Assembly (NCBI GenBank): GCA_029062985.1 | Contig: JAIDPA010000186.1 | Span: forward strand, 1-42,890 | DNA length: 42,890 nt | Direction: 5' to 3' | From: Muribaculaceae bacterium | GTDB lineage: Bacteria > Bacteroidota > Bacteroidia > Bacteroidales > Muribaculaceae | Part shown: positions 38,783-42,890 of the stretch, in pieces | Position numbering within the stretch: position 1 is the first letter of the stretch | Layout: every line of letters starts with the position of its first letter | Notes under the pieces: model-generated | Databases searched by the model: none | Told to the model about the DNA's origin: nothing | What the model saw: only the letters and a program-made list of their open reading frames with translations | Made by a program: the position numbers and the translations under genes

Positions 38783-39004
38783 ATGTACTGGACACTTGAA
38801 CTCGCGTCAAAACTTGAAGACGCACCCTGGCCCGCAACAAAAGACGAGCTTATCGACTACGCAATGCGTAGCGGCGCACCACTTGAAGTGATAGAGAACC
38901 TTCAGGAGATGGAAGACGAAGGCGAGACATACGAAAGCATCGAGGAAATCTGGCCCGACTATCCCTCCAAAGACGACTTCTTCTTCAACGAAGAAGAATA
39001 TTAA
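38783..39004 (+). CDS. DUF2795-family small acidic protein
   Basis: This 73-aa very acidic protein (MYWTLELASKLEDAPWPATKDELIDYAMRSGAPLEVIENLQ) closely follows the DUF2795 pattern widespread in Bacteroidetes. The function is unknown. The codons look more optimised than in neighbouring genes (many GAC, AAC, CTT, GCA), suggesting high expression. The ATG has a short A-rich upstream region without a Shine-Dalgarno. The last eight codons plus terminator recur at 40882 as part of a direct repeat around the DUF4143 gene. Confidence 0.93.
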   Translation: MYWTLELASKLEDAPWPATKDELIDYAMRSGAPLEVIENLQEMEDEGETYESIEEIWPDYPSKDDFFFNEEEY

Positions 39005-39198
39005 AGCGATTATTTCGCATAAACGATTAATAATCAATGGCCAAGTAAAAAAATATTTGTTTGGCCATTGGTGTTTTATAGCCTCAAAAGGCGCAGTTTG
39101 TTTGGCTACCTTCAATGATAAGCCTAATGATTGAGCCATTAATTTCGCTAAAATTATGCGAATACAAAAATCCTCCGGAATATTCCTGTTTCATATAG
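38981..39198. repeat. Direct repeat copy A: 3' end of DUF2795 gene, terminator and flank
   Basis: This copy includes the last codons of the DUF2795 gene (FFNEEEY-stop), the hairpin terminator and about 130 nt beyond. It aligns with 40882-41100. The first ~50 nt have about ten differences. From 39031 to 39187 the copies are identical apart from one A in a homopolymer, and the final ~11 nt are similar with a 2-nt gap. Confidence 0.95.
39035..39074 (+). terminator. Terminator hairpin of the DUF2795 gene
   Basis: CAATGGCCAA (39035-39044) and TTGGCCATTG (39061-39070) pair perfectly over 10 bp around a 16-nt A/T-rich loop, followed by GTGTTTTAT. The T-run is weak, but position and stem fit a terminator. 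The same hairpin recurs at 40936-40970. Confidence 0.7.
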
Positions 39199-39218
39199 AG
39201 GAGGAATGTTCCGGAGGA
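39166..39218 (-). terminator. Terminator of the AAA/DUF4143 gene
   Basis: Arms 39171-39187 (TCCTCCGGAATATTCCT) and 39202-39218 pair over 17 nt with one G-U, and read leftward end in TTTTTG. It lies about 110 nt past the DUF4143 stop. Only the left arm exists in repeat copy B, where no hairpin can form. Confidence 0.75.
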
Positions 39219-39329
39219 AAACCGAGTAAGGCGGCTTCCATAAACCTCATACATTATTTCCCTTGTGAGTTCTTATAGCTGGCAAAATGGATTACTTCTT
39301 TACACTTGTTTTCCCATTTTAACTGTGCG

Positions 39330-40532
39330 TTATTGCACACTTAATAACCAGCGGGGAATATCCACTATTCTTATCCCTTCGTAATCAGTTTCTTCGTTTC
39401 TAGTTCGTGCAAGTAGTAGTTTGGGATAGGCATCACGTATCTGCAACAACGGTTCCACCTCACGTTTGAAAGTCGTTTCTACTGAAATATCATCACTTAC
39501 CTGAATGTAGATTTTATCCCCACCTTTCATTGCAACGAAATCTATCTCCTTCTGGTACAGTTTGCCTACATATACCTCATATCCACGCCGTAGCAATTCA
39601 ATGAACACTATGTTTTCAAGCATACGCCCCCAGTCCATGTTCCGTTTACCAAGTTGTGCAAAACGTATCCCGGTGTCCGCAAGATAGTATTTGCTCAATG
39701 ATTGCAGATAGTTTTTCCCTTTTACATCATAACGTTTAGCTTCGTAAAACACAAAAGCATTACACAGATAATCTATATATCTGCCGACAATCTTATGATT
39801 GGTTTCCACCCCATCGGCTATAAAACTCCCGCTTATATTTCGTGAAGAGGATATATTGCCGATATTGTCCATTAAGTAATGGCTCATACGCTTCATCATC
39901 ATTGGATTGCCAAGCTTGTATTTCTCTACAAGGTCACGGATAAGTATTGTTTCATAAACATCTCGTATATATTTATCCATATCTGCTGTCCTTGAATAAG
40001 GATATGCCCCTGACAAACCGCCTACCTGAATATAATCAGTGAAAGCTTCTTGCATATTGCTATCTGCTATCTCAAAATATGTGCAGTATTCACTGAAACT
40101 GAACGGAAAAACATGTATCTCGATATAGCGACCTGTAAACAGAGTGGCAAGATCACTGCTCAAGAGAAAAGCATTGGAGCCTGTAAGGTATATGTCATAC
40201 CTTTCTTCTGAATGCAGGCTGTTTATTGTAAGTTCAAAACCCTCACACAGCTGCACCTCATCAATCATAAGATAGTTGTTTACTCTATCTTTATATTGCT
40301 TTTCTACATACTCATTAAGAGCATGGTATTCTTTTAACTTTTCAAAACGTAGCTTGGTAAGATCAATTTCAATAACATTTGCTGTCGAATCAATGTTACG
40401 GATATAACGGGCAAAGGCACTCAAAAGCTTTGATTTTCCCGAGCGTCTGATACCGGTCACTATCTTTATGTCGGGAGTGTTCATTACTCCCGATAACTGA
40501 TTGAGGTAGTGTGGTCTGCTTATTAGTTTCAT
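39330..40532 (-). CDS. AAA-family ATPase with C-terminal DUF4143 domain
   Basis: This 400-aa protein belongs to the AAA_14/DUF4143 ATPases common in accessory regions of anaerobes. Walker A is GIRRSGKSKLL (27-37) and Walker B is YLMIDEVQL (87-95). A sensor-like TGSNAFLLSSDLATLFTGRY segment follows, with a winged-helix middle region near 215-250. A C-terminal restriction-endonuclease-like fold covers about 290-370 (ENIVFIELLRRGYEVYVG, EIDFVAMKGGDKIYIQVS); the usual E-x-K position reads IQV, so nuclease activity is doubtful. The physiological role of the family is not known. It is A+T-richer than the core genes and sits between ~210-bp direct repeats. Confidence 0.92.
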   Translation of the reverse strand: MKLISRPHYLNQLSGVMNTPDIKIVTGIRRSGKSKLLSAFARYIRNIDSTANVIEIDLTKLRFEKLKEYHALNEYVEKQYKDRVNNYLMIDEVQLCEGFELTINSLHSEERYDIYLTGSNAFLLSSDLATLFTGRYIEIHVFPFSFSEYCTYFEIADSNMQEAFTDYIQVGGLSGAYPYSRTADMDKYIRDVYETILIRDLVEKYKLGNPMMMKRMSHYLMDNIGNISSSRNISGSFIADGVETNHKIVGRYIDYLCNAFVFYEAKRYDVKGKNYLQSLSKYYLADTGIRFAQLGKRNMDWGRMLENIVFIELLRRGYEVYVGKLYQKEIDFVAMKGGDKIYIQVSDDISVETTFKREVEPLLQIRDAYPKLLLARTRNEETDYEGIRIVDIPRWLLSVQ

Positions 40533-40542
40533 GTCATGCGGT

Positions 40543-40575
40543 GTCCCAAACTTAAAAATATTTCATTTTTGGGAC
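40543..40575. promoter_or_regulatory. Inverted repeat in the leader of the DUF4143 gene
   Basis: GTCCCAAA (40543-40550) and TTTGGGAC (40568-40575) are perfect 8-nt inverted arms 17 nt apart. They lie between the predicted start of transcription (about 40575) and the ATG (40532). It could be an operator or a 5' mRNA hairpin. Confidence 0.55.
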
Positions 40576-40581
40576 GCGAAA

Positions 40582-40612
40582 CAAAGATAAGTATTAAATT
40601 TAAATCCTACAA
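40582..40612 (-). promoter_or_regulatory. Promoter of the DUF4143 ATPase gene
   Basis: Read leftward, TTG (40612-40610), a 20-nt spacer and TATCTTTG (40589-40582) match the consensus. The cassette therefore brings its own promoter and terminator. Confidence 0.65.
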
Positions 40613-40881
40613 TAGATTCTGTAGTATTCTCACGGAAAATATGAATTCAAAATTGAGAACAGGCTCTTAAATTAGATTTTCTGTAATTTTCAACCTAAAA
40701 TAGCCTTTATTCCCTTTCATGTATTAAATTCTTACGATGAACTACCAAACGTGTAATTTAGTCGGATAATTTGTTTGGCCCAATGTTATTGTATCTCCTC
40801 AGATAGTTATAAATAGTCTGGTTTGTTGCGTTAAATGTAATATATAGACTGTTAAATAATTGATTATCAAATGCGGTAGCG
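40613..40881. other. A+T-rich non-coding stretch upstream of the DUF4143 gene
   Basis: No gene was seen. The segment near 40770-40795 (TTTGTTTGGCCCAATGTTATTGTAT) looks like a degraded version of the right arm of the DUF2795 terminator (TTTGTTTGGCCATTGGTGTTTTAT), possibly a third, older repeat remnant. Confidence 0.4.
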
Positions 40882-41100
40882 TTCTTCAACGAAGAGGAAT
40901 ATTAAAGTGATTATGTCGTAAAAGTGACTGCTAATCAATGGCCAAGTAAAAAATATTTGTTTGGCCATTGGTGTTTTATAGCCTCAAAAGGCGCAGTTTG
41001 TTTGGCTACCTTCAATGATAAGCCTAATGATTGAGCCATTAATTTCGCTAAAATTATGCGAATACAAAAATCCTCCGGAATATTCCTACTTCATCCATAG
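40882..41100. repeat. Direct repeat copy B: remnant of DUF2795 3' end plus terminator
   Basis: This copy is the counterpart of 38981-39198. It keeps the codons FFNEEEY-stop in frame, with a GAA-to-GAG synonymous change, but the rest of the DUF2795 gene is absent. The terminator hairpin is intact, and the downstream 17-nt arm of the second hairpin is present without its partner. Confidence 0.95.
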
Positions 41101-41171
41101 TTTCTTGCTTCATAACTTCTTTTTAGGCGGTATGAGTTATAAATTTGTTTATTATATAGTTGATATTTGAT

Positions 41172-41210
41172 TTATCGCAATTTGCGATAAATTACGATAA
41201 ATTGCGATAA
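41172..41210. repeat. Downstream array of 9-nt half-sites at 10-bp spacing beside fic
   Basis: TTATCGCAA (41172), TTGCGATAA (41182), TTACGATAA (41192) and TTGCGATAA (41202) start exactly 10 nt apart. The first two form a perfect 19-bp palindrome. The array ends 4 nt before the fic stop codon (41215). Confidence 0.9.
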
Positions 41211-41214
41211 TGCT

Positions 41215-42516
41215 CTAATGAATTTTGCCTATCAGCTTGTCGAAATTTTCAGAGCGGATATAGCCTTTTGTCCTGCCGTTTAAACTGATTTCACTCAGGT
41301 AGCTCTTTTCTGTCAGTTTTCGCAAGTCGGATTTTGCAGTGTTGGGAGTTACTCCGAATTTACCGACAATATCGGTGGAAACAAGTACGATATCGGGATT
41401 TTCGATACACATATTCAAGATTTGAGACTGGCGTTCTGTAATGTTGCCAAGATGTAAAAGCTTCTTGGCTTTCTTTTTCTCGTTGTTCTTTCGTTTGATA
41501 TATCGGCTTAATGCATCAAACGATTTAAGTAGCACATCCAGATTATATTGTATGAAATATCCTATGTCATTTCCGTCGGCTTCAGAATAAAGAAACGCCT
41601 TTTCATAAGATTTCTTCGAGCCTTTTATGATACGTGAGATAGACAGATACTGCACAAGCCAGTAGTTTGATTTCATCATGTACCAATAAAACAGAGCTCT
41701 TGCAGTTCGGCCATTGCCATCAGCAAAGGGATGGTAGTAGCCGACAAGGAAATGTATTGTTATTGCTCTGATTATAGGATGAACGAAGATCTCGGTATTC
41801 TCGTCGTTGAAAAACGCACATAAGTGATCTAAGAACTCATTAAGGCACTCAGCAGATGGTGGAGTATGCACTATTTCGCCTGTTATGCCGTTGCCTACAA
41901 CAATATTTTCATCATCTCGCCTTAATCGACCGGTGGCATTAGGAACATCAAGCGCATTTTCAGTCATCATACCATGTATCTGCATTACCAATGCCGGAGT
42001 CAACTTTTCGTTTGCATGGTCACGAATAAAATTGATGGTATTGTAGTTGTTGAGAATCATACGTTGGCTCTTATCTCTTGGCGAGATTTTTTTACGAAGC
42101 ATCTCTTTTGCTGCCTCACGTGTTGTGACTGCTCCCTCCATTTGGCTCGAGGCGATGGCCTCCTCCATTATAGAACTGATAAGATACAATTCCTGTGTCG
42201 TCTTGTCGTCGGGAAATATCTTGGAAGCACCCCATGAGCCGCCAAAATTCATATCAAACTCATGACATAGCCTCTGCATTGTGTTTGTCAGAGAGAAATG
42301 AATATTGTTTTGAGACCAAATCTTGACATCAGTTAGATTTCTCACAGATTTGACCTTGCTCCATAATTCAACGCCCGTCATGTTTGAAGGCATACGATAT
42401 TTGACATCACTCCAATAAAGATAGCGGCTATTGATTGAGGAAATAAGATTCGTCAATTCTTCATTATCCAGTGTGGCATCTATATTTTGAGTTATAAATG
42501 GCGGCTGTTCAATCAT
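41215..42516 (-). CDS. Fic-domain AMP-transferase with C-terminal winged helix
   Basis: This 433-aa class II Fic protein would transfer AMP (or a related group) from a nucleotide to a target-protein hydroxyl. The catalytic motif is intact: H262-P-F-A-D-G-N-G-R270. The inhibitory helix lies N-terminal to it (S123-S-Q-M-E127-G, matching S/TxxxEG), so the protein restrains itself and needs no separate antitoxin; none is encoded beside it. The N-terminal ~90 residues are helical, of the Fic_N type. The C-terminal residues 358-430 form a winged helix (TERQSQILNMC ... VSTDIVGKFGVTPNTAKSDLRKL), suggesting DNA binding. The target is unknown. A+T-rich composition indicates acquired DNA. Confidence 0.95.
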   Translation of the reverse strand: MIEQPPFITQNIDATLDNEELTNLISSINSRYLYWSDVKYRMPSNMTGVELWSKVKSVRNLTDVKIWSQNNIHFSLTNTMQRLCHEFDMNFGGSWGASKIFPDDKTTQELYLISSIMEEAIASSQMEGAVTTREAAKEMLRKKISPRDKSQRMILNNYNTINFIRDHANEKLTPALVMQIHGMMTENALDVPNATGRLRRDDENIVVGNGITGEIVHTPPSAECLNEFLDHLCAFFNDENTEIFVHPIIRAITIHFLVGYYHPFADGNGRTARALFYWYMMKSNYWLVQYLSISRIIKGSKKSYEKAFLYSEADGNDIGYFIQYNLDVLLKSFDALSRYIKRKNNEKKKAKKLLHLGNITERQSQILNMCIENPDIVLVSTDIVGKFGVTPNTAKSDLRKLTEKSYLSEISLNGRTKGYIRSENFDKLIGKIH

Positions 42517-42534: not shown

Positions 42535-42565
42535 CAAATATAGTAATTTATCGCAATTTATCAAA
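42535..42565 (-). promoter_or_regulatory. Promoter of fic
   Basis: Read leftward, TTTG (42565-42562), a 19-nt spacer and TATATTTG (42542-42535) match the consensus. The leader is only about 12 nt. The half-site array at 42548-42576 covers the spacer and the -33 box. Confidence 0.7.
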
Positions 42566-42576
42566 ATTTGCGATAA
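42548..42576. promoter_or_regulatory. Candidate operator over the fic promoter: 10-bp phased half-sites
   Basis: TTATCGCAA (42548), TTATCAAAA (42558, degenerate) and TTGCGATAA (42568) start exactly 10 nt apart. They use the same half-site as the array after the fic stop codon. Overlap with the promoter points to repression, plausibly by the Fic winged helix; this is inference. Confidence 0.75.
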
Positions 42577-42890
42577 ATATGAATTTGAGACATTAATAAA
42601 CAAATTGTTAGGCTATAGCATGAAATGATAGGTATTGAATAGGTCAACTTGGATTAGCGACTTATACCTTGTGGATCGTCAAAGATAAAAAATTCTCTGA
42701 ATGTCTGACCGTTTCTTTGTCCACGCCGAGTCTGTTTGACCATTCGATTTTACGCCGTCTGACCGTGAAATATGTTTGTCCATATTACACTACATATTAT
42801 GTAACTTATTATGTGTCCCGTCCTAAAAAATATTGACTAGGATTTGTATTGTTAAATGTTAATATACGTTTAAAATCCGGATAGGTTTTG
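42577..42890. other. A+T-rich right edge with short repeats and a possible 34-codon ORF remnant
   Basis: No confident gene was seen. Between 42694 and 42783 the motif GTCTGACCGT or close variants (GTTTGACCAT, TTTGTCCA) recurs. Read leftward, the same stretch gives a 34-codon frame (42783-42679, MDKHISRSDGVKSNGQTDSA...) of unknown kind. TTACACTACATATTATGTAA (42785-42804) is an imperfect palindrome. TGTCCCGTCCTAAAAAAT at 42812-42829 has the look of a mobile-element end, but nothing beyond it is in the window to confirm this. Confidence 0.35.

Follow-up and report, generated by a model that had tools for sequence, protein, structure and literature searches.

Probable units of a mobile cassette array at the 3' end of a DUF2795 gene in a Muribaculaceae genome

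Two genes between and beyond copies of a DUF2795 end

The window, by which we mean the whole stretch of 42,890 nucleotides analysed here, is an entire contig (C97) of a 2.97-Mb Muribaculaceae genome that is 86% complete. Towards its right end, a host gene (38783-39004, forward strand) encodes a DUF2795 protein of 73 aa (Pfam PF11387, E 2.6e-18), and its last codons, FFNEEEY-stop, form the first copy of what we call the core (38981-39004, forward strand), an attL-like sequence recognised by eye and by core scans. The core is followed on the same strand by a leader, or left arm (39005-39194), with a terminator-like stem at 39033-39072, and then by a single gene on the reverse strand (39330-40532) whose product is an ATPase of the AAA_14/DUF4143 type and matches the candidate defence family PDC-S01 of PADLOC (E 2.4e-145). 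A right-arm motif (40851-40881, forward strand, with TTGATTAT at 40860-40867), common to core copies lying away from the gene, precedes the second core (40882-40905, forward strand), which marks the junction with a following leader (40906-41094, forward strand, stem at 40934-40972) and with a gene on the reverse strand for a Fic-domain protein (41215-42516, PF02661). The Fic gene is probably the cargo of the unit that follows in the array; the contig stops at 42890, before that unit's right end. The ATPase unit thus holds one gene and keeps both att ends, namely the cores at 38981 and 40882 and the arms, while the Fic unit holds one gene up to the end of the contig; both genes, encoding 400 and 433 aa, lie antisense to DUF2795.

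An earlier note on this DNA had described near-identical repeats that begin inside the last codons of DUF2795 and enclose one AAA/DUF4143 gene with its own promoter and terminator, and our analysis agrees with each part of this description. The copies at 38981-39198 and 40882-41100 are identical in 205 of 220 aligned columns (three being gap columns), and from about +51 to +207, some 157 nt, they differ only by one A of a run. Both start within the final codons and retain FFNEEEY-stop in frame, the GAA/GAG difference being synonymous, and Pfam assigns the one intervening gene to AAA_14/DUF4143. A pattern scan places a promoter match at 40582-40612 on the reverse strand, built as TTG-N-TATCTTTG, which we take to be the Bacteroidetes promoter consensus; a match of this kind arises in 2.3% of shuffles of that stretch. 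A terminator-like hairpin followed by T residues lies 3' of the ATPase gene (39171-39218, reverse strand); its inverted arms were read from the sequence, as the automatic stem list has a shorter loop limit and omits it, and the second leader retains just one of these arms. The stems at 39033-39072 and 40934-40972 are parts of the repeats and would be expected to terminate DUF2795 rather than the ATPase gene. By count alone, terminator-like sites are not beyond chance in the window (4 against 2.5, sd 1.4, in shuffles), and sigma-70-type promoters number 14 for 15.0 expected.

No further repeat copy was detected in the genome at E 0.001, and within the window no tRNA or Rfam family lies at the site (nothing at Rfam gathering scores). 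It is also worth mentioning that a 40-nt inverted repeat, 85% complementary and containing TTTATCGCAA-type words, flanks the Fic gene (arms at 41170-41209 and 42539-42578) and overlaps a promoter-like match of that gene ending at 42535; the repeat is perhaps an operator through which the gene controls itself.

The attachment site and its recombinase in Bacteroidales

The DUF2795 gene with its flank, used as query, matched 75 of 101 sampled genomes of the genus, and 17 further matches, in 15 genomes besides the window's own, start at query positions 197-202, that is, in the last codons. The stretches around matches were fetched, and the core scan, which covered the window and loci L063-L141, returned 63 copies at a DUF2795 gene and 38 elsewhere. 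To the left of these 38 the sequence is unrelated, save commonly for an arm motif: in the consensus of 37 of them, a TTGATTAT-like motif precedes the core by about 14-21 bases and its inverse follows the core start at a distance of about 50. The strict core pattern is present in 50 of the 101 genomes, and the same pattern reversed, used as control, has no match in any of the 101. The 63 loci that start with the gene come from 61 genomes, G037 and G057 contributing two each. In eighteen there is another core and the gene has no adjoining recombinase, in 11 a recombinase adjoins the gene, and 34 have one core and no recombinase, 18 of these 34 with less than 3 kb of contig remaining. The array locus and the recombinase locus of G037 lie on different contigs (L078 and L089), and the two DUF2795 loci of this genome bin perhaps reflect two strains or a real duplication. 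Adjacent units frequently have leaders of different types, and no clear signal relates the stop codon to the leader type.

Profile searches of the fetched stretches identified a tyrosine recombinase of about 452 aa directly downstream of DUF2795, with domains PF13102 and PF00589. Its catalytic part aligns with XerD, including the Arg, His-x-x-Arg, His and Tyr positions, which are presumably the catalytic residues. At E 1e-60 this family occurs in 12 of the 101 genus genomes (13 copies), and in 31 of 297 and 8 of 295 genomes of family and order samples that overlap. A core lies within about 600 bp upstream of the recombinase in 41 of 45 loci fetched from the genus, family and order searches; the four exceptions are L161, where none was found, L162, whose recombinase is inverted, L197, at a contig edge, and L204, a distant relative. 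We also examined loci named in GTDB, taking the best 80 of 108, which overlap with the 45: DUF2795 lies 152-281 bp upstream of the recombinase on the same strand in 73 of these best 80, the other seven comprising four with the core alone, one inverted and two with neither. The named loci include Bacteroides, Phocaeicola, Barnesiella, Alistipes and Prevotella, and a few carry labels unlikely for this recombinase (Clostridiales, Saccharibacteria). Across 66 loci, distances between recombinases correlate with distances between leaders (rho 0.37, reached in 0 of 2000 permutations), a correlation that shared ancestry alone could also give. The earlier note had viewed the DUF2795 3' end as an attachment-like site, and the adjoining recombinase, the paired cores and the empty site described below carry this view further: on comparison of sequences, the 3' end of DUF2795 in Bacteroidales is an attachment site.

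In the window's own genome (86% complete) no close recombinase was found, the best match having 30% identity, and seven PF00589 matches on other contigs are none of them close to the family at the site. At E 1e-60 the recombinase is likewise absent from seven array genomes of 91-99% completeness, where no helper was seen, and because of these genomes we infer that units are acted upon in trans; the recombinase may instead have been lost or missed there. G032 has a broken and G036 a truncated copy, and remnants occur inside a unit of 3.6 kb in G016 and, in G008, next to DUF2795. At L126:5952-7295 a recombinase copy is inverted relative to DUF2795, beside a gene that looks resolvase-like by eye. 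One recombinase sequence had no match among plasmids (E 1e-30) or phages (E 1e-20) and three weak matches, at 27-30% identity, among viral contigs.

When 15 recombinase-bearing genomes were searched with a one-mismatch core pattern (29 matches, against 3 for the backwards control), in seven a contig carries the recombinase flanked by two cores, and in the other eight this was not seen. These islands measure 13.3 kb in G188 and 27.7 kb in G651 (each a single contig), 17.2 kb in G136, 21.4 kb in G301 (cores with one mismatch), 19.2 kb in G178, 11.1 kb in G242 and 14.3 kb in G617, where a second recombinase copy follows. The islands of G188 and G651 (L298 and L300) look like mobilizable elements, since they encode a Mob_Pre relaxase; none was found among the selected genes scanned in islands L106, L299 and L302. 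An IS21-type pair, a Mu-type transposase with IstB, lies within the G188 island (L298:5214-7632).

Units, their cargo and their movement

Between consecutive cores we delimited 31 units of 1.26-11.8 kb in the genus, of which 30 lack a complete recombinase, the exception being in G030. For five, whose right-arm score is negative, the call may be mistaken. The longest array has three complete units on one contig (L108). In a Pfam scan of 50 proteins from units and the larger islands, 14 had no family, and the cargo recognised comprises DUF1848 proteins, DUF4417 proteins with HTH/ImmA-type regulators, RhuM, Mks/Wadjet-like genes, AAA+ and Fic proteins, Schlafen/AlbA, AAA_21 proteins (AbiLi/AriA-like) and a reverse transcriptase that PADLOC types as DRT UG24, together with two restriction systems, one of the BsuBI/PstI kind that comes with a KwaB-like protein and one of EcoRV type that comes with a TIR protein. 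By our own reading, about 13 of the 31 units carry families with a link to phage defence, a count from which the DUF1848 and DUF4417 units are excluded, and the ATPase and Fic genes of the window are likely defence cargo too, judging by family resemblance only; the Fic gene is SoFic-like in PADLOC, its 63 bits being far below the NCBIfam SoFic cut-off of 550. Some individual units may be described further. The recombinase-bearing 11.8-kb unit (L167:1799-13618) contains an EcoRV-type endonuclease, two methylases, the TIR protein and a large ATPase that matches AAA/STAND weakly; a 9.2-kb unit (L132:10415-19580) combines the DRT UG24 reverse transcriptase with an AbiGi-like protein and one that has a CHC2 zinc finger. 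Three genomes, G011, G057 (two contigs) and G086, have a four-gene Mks/Wadjet-like operon at this site (loci L108:499-7388, L079, L114 and L123), and PADLOC assigned no family to the four genes of the L108 copy.

The earlier note had asked whether related genomes show an empty site, or other cargo between the same repeats, and both exist. In G088, DUF2795 is directly followed by two genes that G014 has past a 4.2-kb unit and a second core; identity is 96.6% for one of these genes and 99.8% for the other, and the alignment begins at the core, so that G088 compared with G014 is, as read from the alignment, an empty site. Other cargo is provided by the 31 units, and the mobile-cassette reading of the ATPase gene agrees with its recurrence in G013, at 94.3% identity, within a complete 1.9-kb unit that has another gene to its right. 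Relatives thus do not uniformly have both copies with the same gene between them at uniform divergence. A complete 2.1-kb unit of G066 carries a gene related to the Fic gene, for the most part at 76-91% identity per 100 nt, and the Fic gene itself is 96.5% identical in G047, where it lies behind a degenerate core; in G093 an ATPase relative follows a DUF1848 gene, no core being detected between them. G084 and G015 share one unit at 99.8% identity over 3753 nt; between these genomes DUF2795 is 82.8% identical and cobO 67.5% over the 209 nt aligned, and to the right of the core identity drops to 38-64% per 50 nt. A unit so similar in diverged genomes, beside dissimilar neighbours, has moved recently without them. 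Loci L131, L109 and L125 were considered as empty sites and dropped, as the core is then followed, by eye, by an apparent dispersed repeat; L125 also carries a recombinase remnant. Similar intergenic words (TATCG...ACGTCAG-like) after the core in L131, L132, L109 and L125 are perhaps this dispersed repeat. In genus g14, an empty-site search through a putative transporter beyond the far end found no DUF2795 nearby in the other loci fetched.

The displaced core copies belong to no gene, yet they vary in a codon-like manner. An even scan allowing up to five mismatches and without codon preference, whose shuffled control gave no match at this limit, yielded 46 distinct non-gene copies. Relative to the consensus, and leaving out the first codon, 57 of 276 third positions differ as against 9 of 552 first and second positions, an excess with p 2e-20, to be read with the shared ancestry of the 46 copies, which are not independent. 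This variation suggests that each displaced copy, or a recent ancestor of it, once served as the end of DUF2795. As for the leaders, the two of the window are 80, 98, 100 and 100% identical per successive 50 nt, while the first is 92, 82, 76 and 80% identical to the leader of the same cassette in G013. The earlier note had attributed the divergence over the first 50 nt or so to different alleles, and this reading has to be refined: these 50 nt of the first leader are closer to the cassette's leader in G013 (92%) than to copy 2 (80%), and the near-identity of the next 150 nt points to later gene conversion between the two leaders. The start of a leader probably keeps the identity of its cassette, the remaining 150 nt or so having been homogenised later.

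A proposed mechanism, its rivals and related systems

Comparison of genomes shows that one recombinase family goes with the site, that ends are paired, that a site can be empty, that modules are exchanged and that near-identical units occur in diverged hosts; in the light of this we consider it quite likely that the window holds two units of a site-specific mobile cassette array, joined to the end of DUF2795 by a dedicated tyrosine recombinase. A recombinase of this family would join a circular element, the circle and the reaction being our reconstruction, to the last codons of DUF2795. Each element would bring the same codons and a leader with a terminator-like stem, and because it carries them DUF2795 would stay intact after insertion, the displaced old end marking the far side of the unit. 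For small units devoid of recombinase, the enzyme of related islands would act in trans to move them, and later homologous recombination between leaders would account for the 150-nt near-identity in this genome. It is tempting to go further and to suppose, although only tentatively, a Bacteroidales cassette system of its own kind, in which the DUF2795 coding end would be the platform, the recombinase of mobilizable islands would serve in trans a large pool of cassettes of one to a few genes, often defence genes, and selection would keep the cassette ends in frame since each in turn becomes the end of DUF2795.

One may object that the arrays are decayed tandem islands, or CIMEs: recombinase-bearing islands would have inserted serially and lost their recombinase, the remnants moving with a neighbour or never. 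The remnants in G016 and G008 and the damaged genes of G032 and G036 speak for such a course, which is moreover a published route as far as the accessible text of PMC5704250 describes it. Single-gene units that keep both arms speak against it, and the 99.8% identical unit with different right neighbours in two diverged genomes argues for recent movement, so that we hold decay as a full account to be possible but rather doubtful; it partly overlaps our preferred explanation, as decay may be the origin of units later moved in trans. Homologous recombination between the leaders of about 200 bp after DNA uptake, with no present site-specific recombination, would suit the 98-100% likeness of the leaders in this genome beyond +50, but leaves unexplained the sharp left boundary in the last codons and the adjoining recombinase of 73 of the best 80 of 108 loci, and sits poorly with adjacent units often having different leader types; we regard it as unlikely. 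The view that the DUF2795 end was long ago duplicated locally in tandem, around the ATPase gene, to which the mere two copies in the genome might lend some colour, was rejected as extremely improbable: other cargo lies between the same repeats, an empty site exists, and the ATPase gene (94.3%, G013) and Fic gene (96.5%, G047) are more alike between genomes than cobO (69% over 174 nt aligned, G047).

If the site-specific array is accepted, the end of DUF2795 offers in many Bacteroidales a precise and searchable boundary of a variable region with defence-like genes, and thereby a route to seek new ones. The shuffling of cassettes by a recombinase in trans becomes a testable question outside integrons, and codon-like variation in displaced copies a useful sign of array turnover. 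Our literature search, with most subscription journals outside its reach, found no paper joining DUF2795 with an integrase, and the titles on DUF2795 alone were unrelated.

The closest known systems are tandem islands and CIMEs, such as the ssrA islands of Dehalococcoides, with integrons as an analogy. According to the accessible part of their description, the Dehalococcoides islands stand in tandem at a single gene, whose 3' end is copied at the border of every island; some have an integration module and others do not, and mobilizable elements, possibly CIMEs, were proposed (PMC3146451). The units described here likewise stand in tandem between copies of the target gene end. However, the target in Dehalococcoides is the tmRNA gene ssrA, the proposed recombinases are serine recombinases and the cargo includes many reductive dehalogenase genes (same part of PMC3146451), whereas here we have a small protein gene, a tyrosine recombinase and units of 1-12 kb, partly defence-like, in several Bacteroidales families. 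CIMEs, in the portion of the review at hand, carry no integration or transfer genes, keep both att ends and lie in tandem with recombinase-bearing elements (PMC5704250). Similarly, the units of the window are without integration or transfer genes and the ATPase unit keeps both att ends; unlike CIMEs as portrayed there, many units are single genes or operons that recur as modules in different surroundings, their mobilization being our deduction. The target gene of NBU1 differs from DUF2795. In having a tyrosine recombinase and a relaxase at a gene end, two of the larger islands resemble NBU1-type elements of Bacteroides, although their relaxase matches Mob_Pre and that of NBU1 is called MobP in the same portion (PMC5704250). 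Arrays of short cassettes, many without integrase and movable in trans, recall integron and CALIN arrays as outlined in the available text of PMC11389934, such movement being presumed here. Unlike those of integrons, the repeats at this site are duplicated gene ends, and three of the recombinases score 36.7, 30.7 and 31.2 bits with the integron integrase model TIGR02249, below its cut-off of 265. Finally, rAID arrays share with the present ones a tyrosine recombinase, gene arrays, a conserved intergenic sequence and occurrence in Bacteroidales, and consist, in the accessible part of their report, of co-oriented short orphan immunity genes of 100-300 codons (PMC12247911). The window differs from that portrait in its genes, which encode 400 and 433 aa and run antisense to DUF2795, and in the mixed cargo of the units, a comparison that covers genes and cargo.
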